26,144 nt of DNA from a virus. A program made the position numbers and the translations under genes. The notes beneath the pieces were generated by a model that worked only from the letters and a program-made list of their open reading frames with translations, searched no databases and was not told the origin of the DNA. The DNA lies in IMG/VR virus record IMGVR_UViG_3300044615_000901, positions 1-26,144 of that record; one strand, given 5' to 3'. Shown here one piece after another: positions 7,421 through 25,854 of this stretch. The first letter of the stretch is position 1. Each line of letters opens with the position of its first letter.

Positions 7421-10369
7421 ATGGATTTAATAAACAAACTACAAAATCTAAAAGAAACTACTCAATCCAGAGAAGTTAAAGATTTGTGTGAAACCTACAT
7501 TGCTGAACTTAAGAACGGAAACACCTCCATCACAGAATCTCAGGTTGTAGCAGTCATAGAATCTAAAGAAGAAAACACAATTTCTCCAATCGAAGCTCTA
7601 AGAAATGAAGAACTAGAAAGATCTAGGTCTAGAGCTAAGATGATTGCTGAATCTTGGGGTGGTCTTAATTCTTTCACCGTTTCTAAGAATTCCGGTTCTT
7701 ATGTAGACGGAGCTAAAGAAGAAAAACCATCAAGTGAGATTCAAAATAAATTAAACGAAGCTCTAGAAGGAATGGCAAAGTTTGATAAATCTGCTGCTTC
7801 TTTCGTTAATTCAAATAGAGTTGAAAATCTCGGAATTCTAGAATCTATTCTAGAACTTTCAAAGAAAGGGATCTACGAGCATGCTAACTTCAAAATTATC
7901 TGCGAGAACTACGTTAACGTTCTAAAAAATAAAAATGTTCCTGAATATTGGGTTGCTGAGAATTTCATTGCGGATTTCTCTAACTTCTCGTGGGACAACA
8001 GTGTTAAGGCTGCAGTAAATAGAGTTACAGAAGCTTGTAATACTCTTAGACCTGAAATTGAAGTTTCTAAAGCTTTATATCAGATCGAAAATACAGGAAG
8101 TTCTGACTTCTACACCCCTGTTAAAGAATCAATCTCTAAATGGTTAGTTTCTGAATCCAAATCTATTCCTGCACTTTCGAAAGAACTTAGAGTTTGGTCT
8201 TTTAACCCAGTTGTTAAAAACCTTATCAATAATTTAACTCTTCTTGAGACAAATGATTCTAAAATGAATATTCCTACAATCAACGGAAATTCTGAAATTA
8301 GAAAAATCTATTCCCCGGTTCTTGTTGAAAACAACAAGACAATCTTTGCAGTAGGAAAAACTTTATTTGAAGGTAGCTCAGAAGGAGTTAGAAAACTTTC
8401 TAATAGAGATATTGCTAACATGGACAAAGAATTCCTAGGTCTACTTGAAACCTTCTATACAGAGGGAGTTAAAGTTGATGAGAAGGGAATTTCCATTTAT
8501 GCTGGAGATACTAGAATTTCTATCGTCGAGGAAAACGAAGAGACTAAAATCTACCTAAATGACGATCTTGCTAAATTTGGTGACTACAATCAGCTTGCAA
8601 AACTTATCACTTTAAAGATTTCAAGAGGTCTTGGAACCAATGAAAATAAAGTTATCTCTGATACAATCAGACTTTACGAAAACTTCGATAGAATTGTAGA
8701 TCTAGACTTTGCTAAGTCTATAGTATCTAAAGTTTACGAAGGTGCTTCCGTTAGTTTGATTAAGTGGGACGGAAAATTATACTTACAGAGAGTTAACGAG
8801 GCAATGAGAGAAAATTCTCTATTCTCAGTTAATGGATCACAAGCAGCTAACATCGTTAAAGATTTCTTGAAATATGATATTTCAGAAGGTTTAACTGAAT
8901 TCTTGGATGGTGAAAGAAAGATCAAGTCAATCATGATCAACGATAGAAAGAAAGTTATTGATAACATCTCTATCGTAGAAGGTGAAATGAAGAAGATCGA
9001 AACTCTAGTAGCTTCTAATCCTCTCTTCAAAGGATCTAATCAACTTTCTCAGGCTTATTCAATTCTTGAAAAAGAACTTCAGACTCTTAAGTCTAAATGG
9101 TCTACAATCAACGCAGAACTAGATTCTATCGAGAACAATCCAACAGAGATTGAAAATCTAATGGAAGATTCTAAATTCACAGTTGGTGACTACGTTAAAG
9201 TTAAAGAAAATGGAAATACTGGAAAGATCATTTCAGTAGATACAACATCAGGTTCTTACACTGTTCTTTTAGACAGCGGAAAAACTGGTGATTTCGGAGT
9301 AGAAGATATTGTAGATCTTGAAGATGCTTTCCAAAAATCTTCTGACGAAAACGCAGAAGAGGGAGAAGGAGTAAAAGAATCTAGCACACCTTTGGCAAAA
9401 GCACCATCTACTGGTAAATTAGTTCATGGTAAAACTCCAGCTCAAGTTTTAAAGGCTAGCACGTCAGCAGCTCCATCTGCTAAGACACAAGAACAAGACG
9501 GTAAAAAAGACGTTGAAAACCTTAAAGATGCTAATTTAGAAGAAGCTCCAGAAAGCAAAAACAAACCAACCGACTATGAAGTAAATGATGAGATCGGTTA
9601 CAATCTAGAAGAGTCTAGCCAGACTTCTTTAGCTTCAGCTCCACAGGGAAAACCAAAAGGAACTAATATGGCTACAGAATGGGAAAAATCTGGCTTAAAA
9701 GCTATGAATTTAGCTACTACTCCAGGTAAAGAAGAAGGAGATGCAGACTACAAAGTTGAATATCCTGATCCTAAAGCTGATAAAAAACCTGAAGTAACTG
9801 GTAGTTCCAATATGGCAGTTGCCCCAGGAATGGGTAAATCTAAAATGGACGAATCAGATCTTTCTAAATTAGATCCAGCACTTGCTACTGCTCCCGGAGC
9901 ACAAGTTGGTGATTCTGGATACAAAATTAAGATCGACCTTCCAAAAGCTAGCAGCCCAGAAATTGACAATCTAGATACTGCAGAATTGGTAGTAGCTCCA
10001 GAAAAAGGTTCAAAGGTTCCTTCTAAAGACTCAACAAATCCTAATTTTGCTACCTCTCCAGGTAAAGTAGAAGGAGATGCTGGATATGAAGTTGAATATC
10101 TTGACCCCAAAGCTTCTAATGATGCAGACATTGATAATTTAGATACTGCACATCTAGCAGAAACCCCTTCAAAAGGTGCAGATGGTGAAGTCGATTATGA
10201 ACTTAATGCAGAGATGGGATACAATCTTGGCGAAAGCGTAGAGAATTTAACTCTAGAGAACGTTAAAGATTATATCTTGAAGAATAAAGATTCTGAAGAG
10301 ATTCAAAAGATGCTTAAGGATCTAAACGAAGGTTTTGAAAGACCTTCTCCGGAACTAAAAAAAAATTAA
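7421..10369 (+). CDS. Large phage protein with beta-barrel domain and C-terminal repeats, 982 aa before the zero-frame stop
   Basis: The longest gene here, of no recognised family. Residues 1-560 are mainly helical, with a coiled-coil-like stretch at about 500-575. Residues about 586-638 (FTVGDYVKVKENGNTGKIIS onward) look like a small SH3/KOW-type beta barrel. From about 650 to 950 the chain is Ala/Pro/Gly/Asp-rich and repetitive: PGK-EGDA-Y-VEY-DPKA at nucleotides 9706-9783 and 10039-10119, and IDNLDTA twice. Two late-type promoter motifs precede it, so abundant late expression and a head or core role are inferred from position near portal genes. The zero frame ends at TAA 10367-10369, directly after a nine-A run. 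The -1 frame continues for 61 more codons with the same composition (see the slippery site), giving a likely full product of about 1043 aa. Confidence 0.88.
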   Translation: MDLINKLQNLKETTQSREVKDLCETYIAELKNGNTSITESQVVAVIESKEENTISPIEALRNEELERSRSRAKMIAESWGGLNSFTVSKNSGSYVDGAKEEKPSSEIQNKLNEALEGMAKFDKSAASFVNSNRVENLGILESILELSKKGIYEHANFKIICENYVNVLKNKNVPEYWVAENFIADFSNFSWDNSVKAAVNRVTEACNTLRPEIEVSKALYQIENTGSSDFYTPVKESISKWLVSESKSIPALSKELRVWSFNPVVKNLINNLTLLETNDSKMNIPTINGNSEIRKIYSPVLVENNKTIFAVGKTLFEGSSEGVRKLSNRDIANMDKEFLGLLETFYTEGVKVDEKGISIYAGDTRISIVEENEETKIYLNDDLAKFGDYNQLAKLITLKISRGLGTNENKVISDTIRLYENFDRIVDLDFAKSIVSKVYEGASVSLIKWDGKLYLQRVNEAMRENSLFSVNGSQAANIVKDFLKYDISEGLTEFLDGERKIKSIMINDRKKVIDNISIVEGEMKKIETLVASNPLFKGSNQLSQAYSILEKELQTLKSKWSTINAELDSIENNPTEIENLMEDSKFTVGDYVKVKENGNTGKIISVDTTSGSYTVLLDSGKTGDFGVEDIVDLEDAFQKSSDENAEEGEGVKESSTPLAKAPSTGKLVHGKTPAQVLKASTSAAPSAKTQEQDGKKDVENLKDANLEEAPESKNKPTDYEVNDEIGYNLEESSQTSLASAPQGKPKGTNMATEWEKSGLKAMNLATTPGKEEGDADYKVEYPDPKADKKPEVTGSSNMAVAPGMGKSKMDESDLSKLDPALATAPGAQVGDSGYKIKIDLPKASSPEIDNLDTAELVVAPEKGSKVPSKDSTNPNFATSPGKVEGDAGYEVEYLDPKASNDADIDNLDTAHLAETPSKGADGEVDYELNAEMGYNLGESVENLTLENVKDYILKNKDSEEIQKMLKDLNEGFERPSPELKKN
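10357..10363 (+). other. Candidate -1 ribosomal frameshift (or transcriptional slippage) site A_AAA_AAA
   Basis: In the zero frame the codons are CTA AAA AAA AAT TAA, so 10357-10363 is a classic X XXY YYZ heptamer made only of A, within a nine-A run (10357-10365). A one-base backward slip bypasses the TAA and joins the -1 frame, which stays open to 10551. No clear Shine-Dalgarno stimulator or stable downstream hairpin was identified by eye. A homopolymer assembly error would look the same. Confidence 0.6.
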
Positions 10370-10551
10370 AGTCGGCTCTCAGTAAGGTTTGGTCTTTTGC
10401 TCCGGAAAACGAAGAAGCAGAAGGAAAAAAATCCAATCCTGACATAGAAAGTTCGGAAGGAAAGATGAGTGTAGCTCCAGACGGAAAACCTAAAAAGTCT
10501 GAAGATACACTCATTTCTAATGAAGATGAAGAGGGAGAAGACAAAGAATAA
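10366..10551 (+). CDS. -1 frame extension of the 982-aa protein
   Basis: After the nine-A run the -1 frame encodes 61 residues ending at TAA 10549-10551. Two features argue that it is real coding sequence continuous with the upstream gene. It contains MSVAPDGKPKKS, matching the recurring SAPQGKPKG and MAVAPGMGKSK segments upstream. It also shares the same Glu/Lys/Pro/Ser bias. An in-frame ATG at 10465 could make a separate 28-aa peptide, but that is less likely than fusion. A late-type motif for the next gene follows five bases after this stop. Confidence 0.65.
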   Translation, partial: LKSALSKVWSFAPENEEAEGKKSNPDIESSEGKMSVAPDGKPKKSEDTLISNEDEEGEDKE

Positions 10552-10570: not shown

Positions 10571-10906
10571 ATGAAAAATCTAAAATCTTACTCAGAAATT
10601 AACGAATCTGAATTATTTGAAGCATTTGGAAAGGGTGCAGCTGGAAAATCTGCTGTAAATCCATTATTCAAAAAGAACTTCATCGACATGGCTACTAAAG
10701 CTTACGGATATAAGGAAAGTGGAGAAAATCTTTCTAGAGATATTGAAGGAATTAAATCTACAATTTCAGTAAAAGACTCCGGAATTAAATCGGATCTTAT
10801 TGGAGACTATCCTTTGACCAAAACTAAGTCTATAGACTATGTTAAGTTTCTAAATAAAATTGGGGACGAAGCTAGAAAGCAAGCAAAAAAAGCAGTTAAA
10901 AAATAA
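10571..10906 (+). CDS. Small basic protein with capsid-targeting-like N-terminus
   Basis: A 111-aa lysine-rich protein of unknown family. The start MKNLKSYSEINESELFEA resembles the T4 capsid-targeting peptide MKTYQEFIAEA found on internal head proteins. The gp21-type protease cleaves that peptide after (L/I)-x-E. Here both INE (10-12) and LFE (15-17) fit that rule. The remainder is Gly/Ala/Lys-rich with a basic C-terminus (RKQAKKAVKK) suited to binding packaged DNA. Its stop overlaps the next gene (TAATG), whose product has a similar N-terminus. I infer an internal capsid or core protein. The protease gene is not in the window. Confidence 0.75.
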   Translation: MKNLKSYSEINESELFEAFGKGAAGKSAVNPLFKKNFIDMATKAYGYKESGENLSRDIEGIKSTISVKDSGIKSDLIGDYPLTKTKSIDYVKFLNKIGDEARKQAKKAVKK

Positions 10907-11538
10907 TGAAGAATATTAAATCTTTTGGAGACTTTGTTCTAGAGGGAGAAATCTTTTTAGGAGAAACTATCTTCATCGACGTTCAGCCCGATAATTACTT
11001 CGAAGGTGTTATCTTAGAAGCTAAGAAATTTATCGACCAAAAAGAATTGGCGGATGAGGTTAAAAAATCCCTCGCTGAAGGAGAAACAGTTTACATCAAA
11101 GTTTTAGGAAATCCTCGTAGGCCTGTTAGAACAGTAACTCACAAACTTGCTAAGATGCTGGTTGAACTGATTAACTCTGTAGCTTATGGTGAGTTTAGAA
11201 GAAGATGGTCAAATCTAAGCGACGAACAATTTGACGAGGTAATTGCTACAACTCTTAAAGATGTTCTTCAAGACTGGCACAAGAGCGTAGACAAGCCTAA
11301 TTTGACCGACGGACAAATATATGGTAACCTTAGGACTCTAATCAAAACTAGACTTCTTGGAGCTAATAATCAGCTAATGAGAAGAGTAGTTAAAGAACCT
11401 GCAGGCTCTCAACAAGTTGATTACGATGCAATCGATAGAAGTATCAATAAGATTCTAACCGGAACAACAGATAGAGCTTATAGACCAGCAGTAAAGGCTC
11501 CAGAACCTGGAGAAAAGAGCTGGTTTGATATGGAATAA
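10906..11538 (+). CDS. Putative internal head or core protein with capsid-targeting-like N-terminus
   Basis: A 210-aa protein that I cannot assign to a family. It starts MKNIKSFGDFVLEGE, close in pattern to T4 capsid-targeting peptides, with FLGE (17-20) giving an (L/I)-x-E site. Residues about 35-180 are helical with many charged residues and a conserved-looking AYGEFRRRWSNLSDEQFDEV stretch. The end is Pro-rich (APEPGEKSWFDME). It is translated in a TAATG overlap with the preceding basic protein and is the last gene before a strong terminator. Packaging into the head is inferred. Confidence 0.75.
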   Translation: MKNIKSFGDFVLEGEIFLGETIFIDVQPDNYFEGVILEAKKFIDQKELADEVKKSLAEGETVYIKVLGNPRRPVRTVTHKLAKMLVELINSVAYGEFRRRWSNLSDEQFDEVIATTLKDVLQDWHKSVDKPNLTDGQIYGNLRTLIKTRLLGANNQLMRRVVKEPAGSQQVDYDAIDRSINKILTGTTDRAYRPAVKAPEPGEKSWFDME

Positions 11539-11626: not shown

Positions 11627-11983
11627 ATGGCAGACTACGTTAAAAACTCAGAATTAATGAGAGCAATTTTGGAGTCCAAGGAAAAAGGAGCCTTGACCCC
11701 AGAAACTATAAGTATGTTCTATCTTATGATAAACGGAATATCAAAAAAGATGGCATACAAAGATCCGGAGGATAAAGAGGACTGTATGGCTTTTGCTATG
11801 GAAGATCTTTGTAAGTATTGGAATAGATTTGACCCAGCAAAATCTAATAATCCATTCGCATACTACACTCAGATTGCTAAGAATGGATTTGCAAAAGGAT
11901 GGAAGAAAATACATCCACCAAAGTCTCCAAAAACTATCCCATTTTCCCATATAACCGGAGAAGAAAATTCCTACAACATTTAA
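11627..11983 (+). CDS. 55: T4 gp55-like late sigma factor
   Basis: A 118-aa homolog of the T4-type late-transcription sigma factor, which replaces host sigma on RNA polymerase and recognises only a -10-type element, with activation by the sliding clamp. The diagnostic stretch is FDPAKSNNPFAYYTQIAKNGF (68-88). It corresponds to the FDP-KSKNPFAYFTQI region of gp55 in cyanophages and T4. It is preceded by an acidic DKEDCMAFAMEDLCKYW helix, the region-2-like core. It is shorter than T4 gp55 (185 aa) and close to shorter family members. Upstream is a terminator with a late-like motif in its loop, so its own late transcription is possible. The gp4 and portal genes follow within a few bases. Confidence 0.82.
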   Translation: MADYVKNSELMRAILESKEKGALTPETISMFYLMINGISKKMAYKDPEDKEDCMAFAMEDLCKYWNRFDPAKSNNPFAYYTQIAKNGFAKGWKKIHPPKSPKTIPFSHITGEENSYNI

Positions 11984-13115: not shown

Positions 13116-14732
13116 ATGGCAGGTTTTTTAGAAAATCCACAAGGTAGTCCTATCTTCCAAAGAATTAGAGATTCGGTAAAGAATCTAAGTAACTTTGGGC
13201 TAAATTATGGCGACATGGTGGTTAAAAACTCACAAGCCATCGGACAAACAGAAGCAGCATTCCTCAAAAAAGGAATGATTGAAGATGAGACCATGCTATA
13301 TGCTTTGGCCAGACAAGATACAACCTCAAAGCAATATGTTTCTTATTTCGATAAGGACTACAAAGGAAAAAGAGATTATCTTAGAAAGTTTTCTTTGAAC
13401 CCGGAGATTGAATTTATCTTGGATGTAGTTAACGACGAAGCTATTTCTTACGATTCTCATAACTTTTTTGCATACCCAGCTTTTTTAAATCTCACCGGTC
13501 TGAAAGAGAAAGTAGTTGACAAGATCAATGAGAATTATAAGAAACTGTATGATATGTTTGGATTTACTGACGACATTAGTGCTTGGCAGTATTTCAGACA
13601 GTTTTTAGTGGATGGATATGTTGCCTTTGAAATTATCTACGACGACAAAGGTAAAAATATTATAGGATTCAAGGAGATTGATGCTATGACACTTATGCCT
13701 TCTGTAGAAAAACAGAAGGATGGTACTTATCTTAACGTTTGGTGGCAGTATTTTAAAGATCCGAGAAGAAAGAGAATGCTATATGATTCTCAGATTATTT
13801 ACATTTCTTACGCCAAAGGAAATACAGTTTCAAGAGTAAGTTATACAGAGAGACTTATTAGACCCTATAACGTTCTTAGAATCATAGAATACACTAGGGT
13901 AATTTGGTCGGTAATGAATGCTTCATTTAGAATGAAGATGACGGTACCGATTGGAACTAGATCCCAACAAAAAGGGATGCAAACCCTTGGAGAACTAATG
14001 AGCATCTATAAAGAAGACATTAGCTTAAATGACCAGAGTGGAGAACTTTTTGTTAACGGTGCACCAAAGATTCAATTCTTCAAGAATTATCTGATGCCTT
14101 CAGGAGTTAATGGTACTCCTACTATTGAACCTCTTAATAATGTTGGACCAAATTTAAATGATCCAGCTCCATTAGCATATTTCTTTGATAAACTCATCAA
14201 CGAATCAAAGGTTCCAAATTCAAGATTTACCGGACCTGATGGTGGAACCATGGGTAAATATGCAAATGCAGCAGAAGGTCTAGATAAGCAAGAAATTAGA
14301 TTTGCTAAGTTTATTAATAGACTTAGAACTGCATTCCAGGACGTTTTAATTAAACCTCTTTGGATCCAAATGTGTAAGGATTTCCCAGAACTGGAGAAAG
14401 ATTATATGTTTAAGAGCCAACTTGGCTTAGACTATGTTTCGGACAACCCATTCAAGAGGAACCAAGAGATGGAGATCATTCTAAAGAAGAAGGAATCCGT
14501 GGATAAATTGATTGGACTGACTGATGATACGGGAGGTGGATTCTTCTCGGTTCCTTATCTAGTTGAAAATTATTTAGGTCTTACATCGGATGATATAAAG
14601 GCAAATGCCGAGGCTAGAAAAAAAGCAGAGGAGAAGAAAAAAGAGGGTGGTGAAGCTTCAGCAGGATCCCCTCCATCTGGGGCAGCACCAGCAGCTCCGG
14701 CTCCATCTGAAACAGAGGCTCCACCAGCATAA
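13116..14732 (+). CDS. 20: Portal vertex protein gp20, copy 1
   Basis: A 538-aa protein of the T4 gp20 portal family, which forms the dodecameric ring through which DNA enters and leaves the head. Family landmarks include the N-terminal region leading to NPEIEFILDVVNDEAISYD (95-113), the FRQFLVDGYVAFEIIYD strand region, IIYISYAKGN followed by the ERLIRPYNVLRIIEYTRVIW helices, and the RFTGPDGG loop near 375. The C-terminus is Ala/Pro/Glu-rich and differs from copy 2. Both copies begin MAGFL and align along most of their length, with blocks such as GTRSQQKGMQTLGELM versus GTQSQQKAMQTLGQLM. The stop lies nine bases before copy 2. Confidence 0.92.
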   Translation: MAGFLENPQGSPIFQRIRDSVKNLSNFGLNYGDMVVKNSQAIGQTEAAFLKKGMIEDETMLYALARQDTTSKQYVSYFDKDYKGKRDYLRKFSLNPEIEFILDVVNDEAISYDSHNFFAYPAFLNLTGLKEKVVDKINENYKKLYDMFGFTDDISAWQYFRQFLVDGYVAFEIIYDDKGKNIIGFKEIDAMTLMPSVEKQKDGTYLNVWWQYFKDPRRKRMLYDSQIIYISYAKGNTVSRVSYTERLIRPYNVLRIIEYTRVIWSVMNASFRMKMTVPIGTRSQQKGMQTLGELMSIYKEDISLNDQSGELFVNGAPKIQFFKNYLMPSGVNGTPTIEPLNNVGPNLNDPAPLAYFFDKLINESKVPNSRFTGPDGGTMGKYANAAEGLDKQEIRFAKFINRLRTAFQDVLIKPLWIQMCKDFPELEKDYMFKSQLGLDYVSDNPFKRNQEMEIILKKKESVDKLIGLTDDTGGGFFSVPYLVENYLGLTSDDIKANAEARKKAEEKKKEGGEASAGSPPSGAAPAAPAPSETEAPPA

Positions 14733-14741
14733 AAAAGATAA

Positions 14742-16346
14742 ATGGCAGGATTTTTAGATTCAAACCCGCAGAATAGATTCGTTACCCAGCTCTACAAAAA
14801 TCTTAGTAGAATTGGTAAATTCGGAATGCAATACGAAGACATGGTTATTCGTAATTCCCAGACTATTGGGCAAACTGAATCCCAAATGTTCTCAGAAGAA
14901 GGTAACGGGTTCACAAACGATAGTGCTTTCTACTGGACTCTTGGATATCAAGATACTAGAATCAGAAAATACATTGCTTATTTTGACAAGGACTATCTAG
15001 GTAAAAGAGATTTCTTAAGAAAATTTGCACTAAATGGAGAGATTGATTTTATCCTGGAAACAATTTCTGATGAAGCTGTTAACTACGACGACAAGAACTT
15101 CTTCTGTCAGCCTTTGTTAAACAATATTGATCTGAAAGATAAGATTATCGATAAAGTTCACGAGAACTTTAAAACGATTTATATGCTGTATGCATTCCAA
15201 CAGAACAATTTAGCTTGGCAGTTATTCAAGCAATTTTTAATTGATGGATTCTTAGCTTTTGAAATTGTATATTCAACAGACGGAAAGAAGATAGTTGGAT
15301 TTAAAGAACTCGATCCAACCTCACTACAGCCGCATACAGAGAAAGCTCCTGACGGTTCTTTTGAACAGATCTGGATTCAATATCCTAAGGATACTCAGCT
15401 CTCTAGAAAGTTAAAGTCTGAGCAGATCATCTACATATCTTATGCAAAGGGTAATTCTATCTCTAGAGTTAGCTACGTTGAAAGACTGATTAGATCTTAC
15501 AACATCCTAAGAGTTATGGAGAACACCAGAGTTATCTGGAACGTGATGAATGCTTCTTATAGATTAAAGTTTGTAATTCCTGTTGGTACTCAATCTCAAC
15601 AAAAAGCAATGCAAACTCTTGGGCAGTTAATGTCTTCTTATAAAGAGGAAGTTTCTATCAACGACACTTCAGGAGAACTTCTAGTAAACGGAACTCCTAA
15701 GATTCAGTTCTACAAGAATTATTTATTCCCGGAGAAGGATGGACAATCCCCGCAGATTGATGTTTTGAATGCAAATGGACCAGATTTTAACGTAATGGAA
15801 AATGTTATCTATTTCTACAATAAATTGAAATTAGATTCTAAGATTCCATATGCTAGATTTGCTGGTAGAGGAGCATCCCCTGCCAACTATCAGATTTCAA
15901 TAGATCAGCTAGAAAGAGATGAGATTAGATTTGAAAAATTTCTAACCAGACTTAGATCTATCTTCCAGGAAATAGTAGTTAAGCCTCTCTATATTCAGAT
16001 GTGTTTGGATTTCCCCGAACTTTCTAAAGACAGAAGTTTTAAGGCTAATCTTGGTCTAGATTACTATAACGAAAATCAATTCCAAAAGCTTCTTGATCTG
16101 GCACATCTTACCAAAGCATCTGACTTTGTTACCACTCTAGGGGAAATAAAAATGAAAGTTGGTGAAGAAGAGAAACCTTATTTTGACAAGGATTTCTTGA
16201 TTAGAAGATTCGTTCCTCTTTCTAGAGACGAGTTCGACAAGAATAAAGTCTATAAAGAAGCAGAAGCTAAGGAAGCAGAAAAAGCTAAGAAGAAAGCGGA
16301 GAAAGAAGGAGGAAAAGAAGGTGAAAGCGAGAGCTTTACCTTATAA
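14742..16346 (+). CDS. 20: Portal vertex protein gp20, copy 2
   Basis: A 534-aa paralog of the preceding portal. It keeps the same core blocks: NGEIDFILETISDEAVNYD, FKQFLIDGFLAFEIVYS, IIYISYAKGNSISRVSYVER and DTSGELLVNGTPKIQFYKNY. It diverges in the N-terminal segment, in the loop equivalent to RFTGPDGG (here RFAGRGASP), and in the C-terminal third, which ends in a Lys/Glu-rich helix (AEAKEAEKAKKKAEKEGGKE). T4 has one portal gene. Here both copies look intact, with no stops and all core motifs, so both are likely expressed. They might make a mixed ring, or one might have taken a different role. Confidence 0.92.
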   Translation: MAGFLDSNPQNRFVTQLYKNLSRIGKFGMQYEDMVIRNSQTIGQTESQMFSEEGNGFTNDSAFYWTLGYQDTRIRKYIAYFDKDYLGKRDFLRKFALNGEIDFILETISDEAVNYDDKNFFCQPLLNNIDLKDKIIDKVHENFKTIYMLYAFQQNNLAWQLFKQFLIDGFLAFEIVYSTDGKKIVGFKELDPTSLQPHTEKAPDGSFEQIWIQYPKDTQLSRKLKSEQIIYISYAKGNSISRVSYVERLIRSYNILRVMENTRVIWNVMNASYRLKFVIPVGTQSQQKAMQTLGQLMSSYKEEVSINDTSGELLVNGTPKIQFYKNYLFPEKDGQSPQIDVLNANGPDFNVMENVIYFYNKLKLDSKIPYARFAGRGASPANYQISIDQLERDEIRFEKFLTRLRSIFQEIVVKPLYIQMCLDFPELSKDRSFKANLGLDYYNENQFQKLLDLAHLTKASDFVTTLGEIKMKVGEEEKPYFDKDFLIRRFVPLSRDEFDKNKVYKEAEAKEAEKAKKKAEKEGGKEGESESFTL

Positions 16347-22061: not shown

Positions 22062-22547
22062 TTGAAGCACATTATTCCTATTAACGAATTTTTCCAAGAC
22101 GTTGGAGTCTTTGGTGACACATATGGATATGGAGGGGCTAATGGTGTATTCAAAGTTACCTATAAGCCATACAAGGACCTTTCTGTTACCGTTGGACCAG
22201 ATCCTAACGTGCCAAGATATAAAAAGGGATCTCAATTTCAAGTTGGAGACTATGTTTCTGCAAAACCTATTAACTCCAAGAAGGAAATAATCGGGATGGT
22301 GGTTAAAACAGTTCTTAGTAGTGATGGCAAAAACTACAAGTATTTTGTTCAGATTAAATCCAAGAACAAAAAGGAAGAGGATGTAGTAGAAGTTGTTCCC
22401 AGCACCATTAAATTTATCGATGGTGGAGACAAAGGATTTAACCAAAAAGGAGCAAAGTTTAATATGGATGCGGCAGACGGAGAGGTTTACAATTCACCTT
22501 ATGTTTACAACAACAACGTTGGTGGTGAGCAAGTAGACGGATCTTAA
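22062..22547 (+). CDS. Putative packaged protein with SH3/KOW-like domain
   Basis: A 161-aa protein beginning at TTG (22062) with MKHIIPINEFFQDVGVFGD, which resembles the capsid-targeting-like starts at 10571, 10906 and 25060. INE (7-9) gives an (L/I)-x-E site. No in-frame ATG lies near, and AGAGGA at about 22043 is a fair ribosome site for the TTG. Residues about 62-112 (FQVGDYVSAKPINSKKEIIG onward) look like a small beta barrel similar to residues 586-638 of the 982-aa protein. The C-terminus is Gly/Asn-rich. A virion-internal role is inferred. Confidence 0.68.
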   Translation: MKHIIPINEFFQDVGVFGDTYGYGGANGVFKVTYKPYKDLSVTVGPDPNVPRYKKGSQFQVGDYVSAKPINSKKEIIGMVVKTVLSSDGKNYKYFVQIKSKNKKEEDVVEVVPSTIKFIDGGDKGFNQKGAKFNMDAADGEVYNSPYVYNNNVGGEQVDGS

Positions 22548-25059: not shown

Positions 25060-25854
25060 GTGGAGCCAGTAAAGTCTTTTAGAAACTATTTTATATTTGA
25101 GAAACAGATAGGATCTTTCTATCAGGATGAACTAAACCCAAAATTTTGGACCAAGAGAGTTTCGAAAGACGGGACCAAAGAAAAGTGGATTCTGGATCCT
25201 ATAGTTAGAAAAAAACTCCTAAAGATAGGAGAAGAATTTTACGATGGACTAAAGGACGTAGTTGGTAAAACTCCCATCTACGATATCCAATTGACGGGAT
25301 CTATTGCAAACTACAACTGGACAGACCTTTCCGACTTAGATATTCACGTATTGGTGGATTTTGATAAAATAGATGCACCAAAAAAAGTCATCGAATCTGC
25401 TGGTGAAGGGGCAAAGTTTGTGTGGAACACTCGACATGATATTAAGATGAGAGGACACGATGTTGAGGTCTACCTCCAAAGCTCAGACGAAAGACACCAT
25501 ATAACCGGTTTATACTCACTTAAAGATAACAAGTGGGTTAAAAAACCTCAGTTCGATCCCCCGAAGATTGACGAAGATGATGTCTACAAAAAATCGGACT
25601 TGATAGCGAAAGAGATTTCTGATTTAGAGGGAAAACTGATAAAATCATATTCTTTGCCAAAGGAATCTAGGAATCTCTATCAGAGAGCCAAGTCTCTAAA
25701 GAAGAAGATAAGTAAGATGAGGAAAGAAGGTCTGGAGAAGAAGGGAGAATTTTCTGTCGGTAATCTTGCCTTTAAGAAGCTCAGAAACGATGGATATATA
25801 GGAAAGCTAATTGATGTAATGTCTCAGGCTTACGACAGAATATATTCAGAATAA
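25060..25854 (+). CDS. Nucleotidyltransferase with capsid-targeting-like N-terminus
   Basis: A 264-aa protein with the DNA polymerase beta-type nucleotidyltransferase core: LTGSIANYNWTDLSDLDIHV (78-97) has the G-S motif and the D-x-D pair (Asp92, Asp94). A third acidic strand is DVEVYL (134-139). The substrate is not evident. It could add nucleotides to RNA, protein or small molecules. The C-terminal third is a Lys-rich helical region. The start is GTG at 25060, three bases past the terminator T run, giving MEPVKSFRNYFIFEKQ. This resembles T4 capsid-targeting peptides, with IFE (12-14) as an (L/I)-x-E cleavage site. It may be packaged and injected like T4 Alt. That is inference. Confidence 0.82.
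   Translation: MEPVKSFRNYFIFEKQIGSFYQDELNPKFWTKRVSKDGTKEKWILDPIVRKKLLKIGEEFYDGLKDVVGKTPIYDIQLTGSIANYNWTDLSDLDIHVLVDFDKIDAPKKVIESAGEGAKFVWNTRHDIKMRGHDVEVYLQSSDERHHITGLYSLKDNKWVKKPQFDPPKIDEDDVYKKSDLIAKEISDLEGKLIKSYSLPKESRNLYQRAKSLKKKISKMRKEGLEKKGEFSVGNLAFKKLRNDGYIGKLIDVMSQAYDRIYSE

Follow-up and report, generated by a model that had tools for sequence, protein, structure and literature searches.

Comparative evidence for -1 slippage at an invariant nine-A run that would give a late-region protein of Lak-related phages two C-terminal isoforms

The nine-A run and the frames that meet at it

Does a 982-aa phage protein end only at the stop codon of its open reading frame, or does slippage on the run of nine A's that abuts this stop also produce a longer form? 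The question is raised by the 26,144-base viral fragment from IMG/VR analyzed here (hereafter, the window). Read directly from the sequence, the 3' end of the 982-aa open reading frame is CTA AAA AAA AAT TAA. In the -1 frame, there is no stop from the run to the codon at 10549-10551, which leaves 61 codons past the third AAA and gives a fused product of 1043 aa. After the nine A's, this frame reads KLKSALSKVWSFAPENEEAEGKKSNPDIESSEGKMSVAPDGKPKKSEDTLISNEDEEGEDKE. The features on which the analysis turns are the following.

7421-10369, + strand: zero-frame open reading frame encoding the putative short isoform (982 aa), with homologs at 79 viral loci
7421-9340, + strand: mostly folded part of the protein according to AlphaFold2 (residues 1-640), with a helical N terminus, a β-rich middle, long helices, and an SH3/Tudor-like domain (575-632)
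9341-10366, + strand: predicted disordered tail (pLDDT below 50 at residues 642-944) with, by motif count, about nine [LMF]xxAP motifs
10357-10365, + strand: putative nine-A slip site in the phase NNA AAA AAA AAY, which contains A_AAA_AAA; exactly nine A's at 75/75 loci showing the site
10367-10369, + strand: zero-frame stop TAA, abutting the nine-A run; TAA or TGA at the equivalent place in all relatives
10366-10551, + strand: -1 frame extension of 61 codons plus stop, the putative C terminus of the long isoform, supported by dN/dS and by a frame open in 41/41 homologs
10390-10404, + strand: WSFAP motif of the extension, which is WAFAP, WSVAP, or FYFAP in the alignment of relatives
10465-10488, + strand: MSVAPDGK motif of the extension, aligned with LSKAPTGK and similar motifs in clade C

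Nineteen bases separate the -1 frame stop from the start of the next gene at 10571. Among the gaps between the main open reading frames of the window, the 201 bases 3' of the zero-frame stop form the longest. The extension occupies this gap; an earlier note, made from the sequence alone, had suggested that such an extension would account for an otherwise gene-free gap of about 200 bases. In shuffles of this stretch alone, the chance of an open 61-codon frame was about 0.009.

The site is conserved across three deep clades

Relatives of the protein were sought in viral contigs, where a protein search returned 21 loci and a profile search 78. Four loci end upstream of the slip site and one (L108) ends just past it. 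The site and the extension are visible at 75 loci, corresponding to 42 distinct sequences, all of which have exactly nine A's followed by C or T, an immediate TAA or TGA, and an open -1 frame. The latter is 51-62 codons long, with one case ended by its contig end. These relatives come from many separate metagenome assemblies, their zero-frame proteins are roughly 40-95% identical to that of the window, and they fall into three deep clades (A, B, and C). The earlier note had held that runs of eight or ten A's, or homologs lacking the extension while keeping the zero-frame stop, would speak against slippage. No run of eight or ten A's was found among the homologs, every homolog with the repeat tail has the extension, and the zero-frame stop is conserved together with it.

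Further afield, a DNA-level search of phage records gave no match, and a protein search of the same records found only the 462-kb LR756500 (26.6% identity), whose 617-aa homolog has neither the tail nor the slip site. Relatives of the core domain were recognized by profile in LR745206, LR756504, and LR756501, and the ends of these proteins show no such slip site. A search of prokaryote genomes found no relative. When we looked for reuse of the slip signal elsewhere in the same phages, there were two extra matches in long contigs, neither of which is a slip site at a gene end. Two loci carry an extra frame break within the large gene, far from the nine-A run (L055 near 7102 and L114 near 8392), and these are probably contig errors.

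Selection on the run, the stop, and the -1 frame

The run itself is strikingly pure. Its two zero-frame Lys codons and the Lys codon of the -1 frame are AAA in 42/42 sequences, although 31% of Lys codons are AAG and both codons occur in each of the nine other columns that are Lys throughout. On the tree, no change falls at the Lys columns of the run, versus three to nine at 20 other Lys columns. The codon preceding the two AAA codons is TCA, TTA, CTA, or GTA; its first two positions have changed five times on the tree, each time altering the residue, but its final A never has, and only 1.6% of the well-filled third positions in the gene are without any change. As for the zero-frame stop, it has been retained despite changes of the following residue (Lys, Arg, or Ser), and its retention leaves only TTA, CTA, or CTG for the Leu codon of the -1 frame and, for the Ser codon that comes next in clade C, only AGC or AGT. 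Since the stop is kept despite these limits on codon choice, selection apparently acts on the short product as well.

The extension displays the signature of a coding frame. The median dN/dS in the -1 frame is 0.11 in clade A, 0.22 in clade B, and 0.20 in clade C, versus 1.2 and 1.7 for the same region in the other two plus frames. Moreover, among 41 distinct complete homologs, the -1 frame is open in all 41, the other plus frames in none, and the best minus frame in 17. By these comparative measures, the -1 frame is under purifying selection, and the comparison as a whole shows selection to be maintaining three elements: the nine A's, the stop beside them, and the -1 frame.

Because selection acts on all three, we infer that both isoforms are made, and programmed -1 recoding, whichever machine slips, is very probably their source. 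Products halting at the TAA beside the run would have 982 aa, and a fraction would shift by -1 at the run and continue for 61 further codons to reach 1043 aa. The central claim of the earlier note, that slippage at the nine A's yields a second, C-terminally extended isoform, is thus strongly supported by an invariant run, a stop, and a constrained -1 frame in 42 distinct homologous sequences from three deep clades.

Could a homopolymer of this kind have misled us? Such runs are common sites of sequencing and assembly error, and one extra A would fuse the two frames, in which case the true gene would be a single fused frame or one with a decayed C terminus. However, 42 distinct sequences, drawn from many metagenomes, have identical nine A's and a conserved stop, and no fused in-frame version exists among the 75 loci, which refutes this explanation unless all assemblies share one error; because the relatives were assembled separately, we give error a negligible probability. 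Equally negligible is the probability that the extension belongs to an independent small gene, started separately on either strand, as could be suggested by an ATG in the -1 frame (10465) and by an open reading frame on the minus strand of the window. Constraint starts at the run, 34 codons ahead of this ATG, and the Met that opens MSVAPDGK is Leu or Phe in clade C, so it is not a conserved start. At one locus (L008), a stop interrupts the -1 frame two codons ahead of the run, and no ATG, GTG, or TTG lies between this stop and the conserved WAFAP, which, with the replaced Met, argues against any separate start, and the best minus frame is open in too few homologs (17/41). On this comparative evidence, sequencing error, a pseudogene, and a separate gene are effectively excluded. 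Phase variation, in which the length of the run would vary in the DNA so that each phage genome makes one form or the other, fares only slightly better. A-runs are prone to replication slippage, and long ones are avoided in the other genes of these phages, but switching should leave some assemblies with eight or ten A's when all 42 distinct consensus sequences have nine, and conservation of third positions within the run indicates selection on its purity. We therefore consider phase variation very improbable.

Polymerase or ribosome

If programmed recoding is the source of both isoforms, either RNA polymerase or the ribosome could slip. Bacterial RNA polymerase has been shown to slip efficiently in vivo on runs of nine A's (PMC5009743, PMC1088944). 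Functional transcriptional slippage has been characterized by a run of at least nine A/T inside a coding sequence (PMC1088944), which is present in the gene of the window and in all its relatives, and by frame-independent selection against such runs in other genes (PMC1088944). The latter was revealed by a census of A-runs in 543 non-redundant open reading frames from these loci, with the slip site removed and expectations taken from codon-randomized genes. Runs of seven A's are not avoided (191 seen versus 197 expected), but there are only 23 runs of eight versus 68 expected, and only two of nine or more versus 37 expected, the last being low in all three phases. Between genes, the depletion of runs of nine or more is weaker (five seen versus 9.7 expected). 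Avoidance that is independent of frame and begins at eight or nine A's is what polymerase slippage predicts, although replication slippage could contribute to it.

The same two products would also arise by -1 programmed ribosomal frameshifting, through tandem tRNA-Lys slippage on A_AAA_AAA, perhaps aided by the adjacent stop and in need of no RNA stimulator. A heptamer of the form X_XXY_YYZ in the zero-frame phase is indeed present, as A_AAA_AAA, in 42/42 sequences, and it is retained where the preceding residue changes; this phase cannot discriminate between the two machines, since it is fixed by the two frames. Phage precedents are ribosomal (PMC5009743), and clusters of IS elements are known that use A_AAA_AAC with no established stimulator (PMC4066793). 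In-phase A_AAA_AAG is avoided about twofold in the other genes (35 seen versus 64 expected), and the ribosomes of these hosts therefore probably slip as well. However, seven A's suffice for the heptamer and nine are always kept, and in-phase runs of seven are scarcely avoided (59 seen versus 67 expected), whereas runs of eight and of nine or more are avoided in every phase. In addition, the aligned sequences share no Shine-Dalgarno-like element upstream, and folding of nested base pairs gave no sign of the downstream stem-loop that, like a pseudoknot, usually, but not obligatorily, stimulates -1 frameshifting. Mean folding z-scores over the 42 sequences were -0.08 (40 nt) and -0.23 (60 nt), and consensus folds for clades A and B contained at most one pair with a double-sided change and no covarying structure. 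Rfam likewise yielded no conserved RNA structure.

Because long A-runs are avoided independently of frame and no downstream structure is conserved, we favor RNA polymerase over the ribosome as the slipping machine, with some confidence, and regard ribosomal frameshifting as a serious but clearly less probable source of the long form. Both machines may contribute. The two isoforms by slippage proposed in the earlier note thus stand, and the evidence leans toward the polymerase rather than the ribosome as their agent. This enzyme is presumably that of the host, since a search of eight long relatives, some fragmentary and the longest 348 kb, found no RNA polymerase β subunit, and the slip would most likely consist of adding an A to the transcript, from nine to ten. 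The fuller proposition, that polymerase slippage at an invariant run of nine A's sets the proportions of two isoforms of a virion or assembly protein, in large-genome DNA phages that are related to Lak and other huge phages, probably infect Bacteroidota, and keep such runs out of nearly all other genes, we hold to be evenly balanced between true and false.

The protein and its extension

Searches of Pfam, PHROGs, and PDB sequences gave no family match and no function for the 982-aa protein; a match to Pfam MSSS was weak and below the cut-off. The AlphaFold2 model has low overall confidence (mean pLDDT 60, pTM 0.33), with values mostly between 70 and 90 for residues 1-640 and a disordered tail of about 300 residues. 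In Foldseek, the small domain matched Tudor/MutS2-SH3 folds, and the other matches were to uncharacterized phage proteins, including one from Tenacibaculum phage PTm1. In this phage and in MA9V-2, both of them related, the gene annotated for the major capsid protein is located elsewhere, past the portal gene.

The tail ends in a variable number of AP motifs. By a simple motif count, this end of the zero-frame protein has eight to nine in clade A, whereas in clade C the count can drop to one. In contrast to this variation, two are invariably present in the extension, where a basic stretch that includes Trp or aromatic residues comes before the first and the end is acidic. The earlier note had described the extension as matching repeated segments upstream, and this is true for the short [LMF]xxAP motif, which occurs about nine times in the zero-frame tail and twice in the extension, but not at the DNA level, where the best match is 16 nt with 81% identity. 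The long form would gain two AP motifs, a basic stretch with Trp, and an acidic end over the short one. We suggest, with low confidence, that the protein might belong to a virion or assembly module in which the long form is a minor isoform binding a partner that the short form does not.

Comparison with known two-product recoding

The arrangement would represent two-product recoding of a known type, of which T7 10A/10B and Thermus dnaX are examples, what is new being the phage group and the gene. In T7 gene 10A/10B, T3, Lactobacillus phage A2, and the structural genes of Listeria phages PSA and A118 (PMC5009743), recoding near the end of a phage gene also produces a minor, C-terminally extended isoform. 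Those proteins are major head or tail proteins and the recoding is ribosomal, often with stimulators, whereas here there are nine A's and no conserved stimulator, in a gene that is only tentatively assigned to the virion or assembly module. Thermus thermophilus dnaX (PMC1088944, PMC5009743) resembles our case in having a coding-strand run of nine A's and a conserved pair of products, and slippage there occurs during transcription; however, its slipped product is the short one, when here slippage in a phage gene would give the longer one. In Shigella mxiE and in IS elements with slippage on A/T runs (PMC1088944), overlapping frames are likewise joined into a longer product, with conservation of the run and of the organization of the open reading frames. 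These are other genes in other organisms, and here the run is conserved across phages at about 40% protein identity. Conserved -1 recoding in phage morphogenesis genes is also known from the lambda G/GT tail assembly chaperone (PMC5009743), which is a small protein encoded before the tape measure. The 982-aa protein does not fit this description, and its neighbors are short open reading frames, a late-sigma-like gene, the gene for a protein with a TnsA-like nuclease domain, and portal genes. Our search of the open-access literature found no report of the present case, which is weak evidence of absence.

If the polymerase were confirmed, its use for a conserved late-region phage protein would also be new. 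The locus offers an unusually clean and deeply conserved instance of two-product recoding in large uncultured phages, in which the 61-codon extension would be overlooked by a gene caller that ends the gene at the zero-frame stop. It permits a direct test of whether polymerase or ribosomal slippage fixes the ratio of two phage proteins, and it singles out an unassigned, conserved late-region gene of Lak-related phages for structural and virion work.

Genomic neighborhood and phage group

The gene precedes, in clades B and C as well as in LR756500, a homolog of the sigma-70-region-2-like protein encoded at 11627-11983 of the window and, further downstream, a gene for a protein with a TnsA-like nuclease domain and then portal genes. 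We take the nuclease-domain protein to resemble the T4 head-completion protein gp4. Three other huge-phage records encode shorter relatives, limited to the core, upstream of the portal. By its portals, the phage is placed near LR756500, the Lak phages, and other phages of Bacteroidota, and because of these relationships a Bacteroidota host is likely.

Several other features of this region deserve mention. The window encodes two tandem portal proteins (13116-14732 and 14742-16346, + strand), both of the PHROG portal family and 49% identical to each other. Both copies are kept as separate orthologs (66-98% identity) at more than 60 loci in all three clades, wherever two portal places are visible, and LR756500 shows one portal place. 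It would be unusual for a portal to be built from two different subunits or for portals to have two roles. There are also two sigma-factor-like genes, one for an ECF-like sigma-70 protein (2377-2988) and the other for the short, late-sigma-like protein consisting of region 2 only. Several proteins (10571-10906, 10906-11538, 22062-22547, and 25060-25854) have similar short N termini (MKNLKSYSEINE, MKNIKSFGDFVLEGE, MEPVKSFRNYFIFE, and alike), which in our view resemble the capsid-targeting N termini of T4 internal head proteins. In LR756500, translations read at the locus (L023 4281-5516 and 7849-9462) show a TnpB-like gene immediately ahead of the homolog of the 982-aa gene and, a short distance past it, an endonuclease-like gene, both apparently mobile insertions around the late-gene block.
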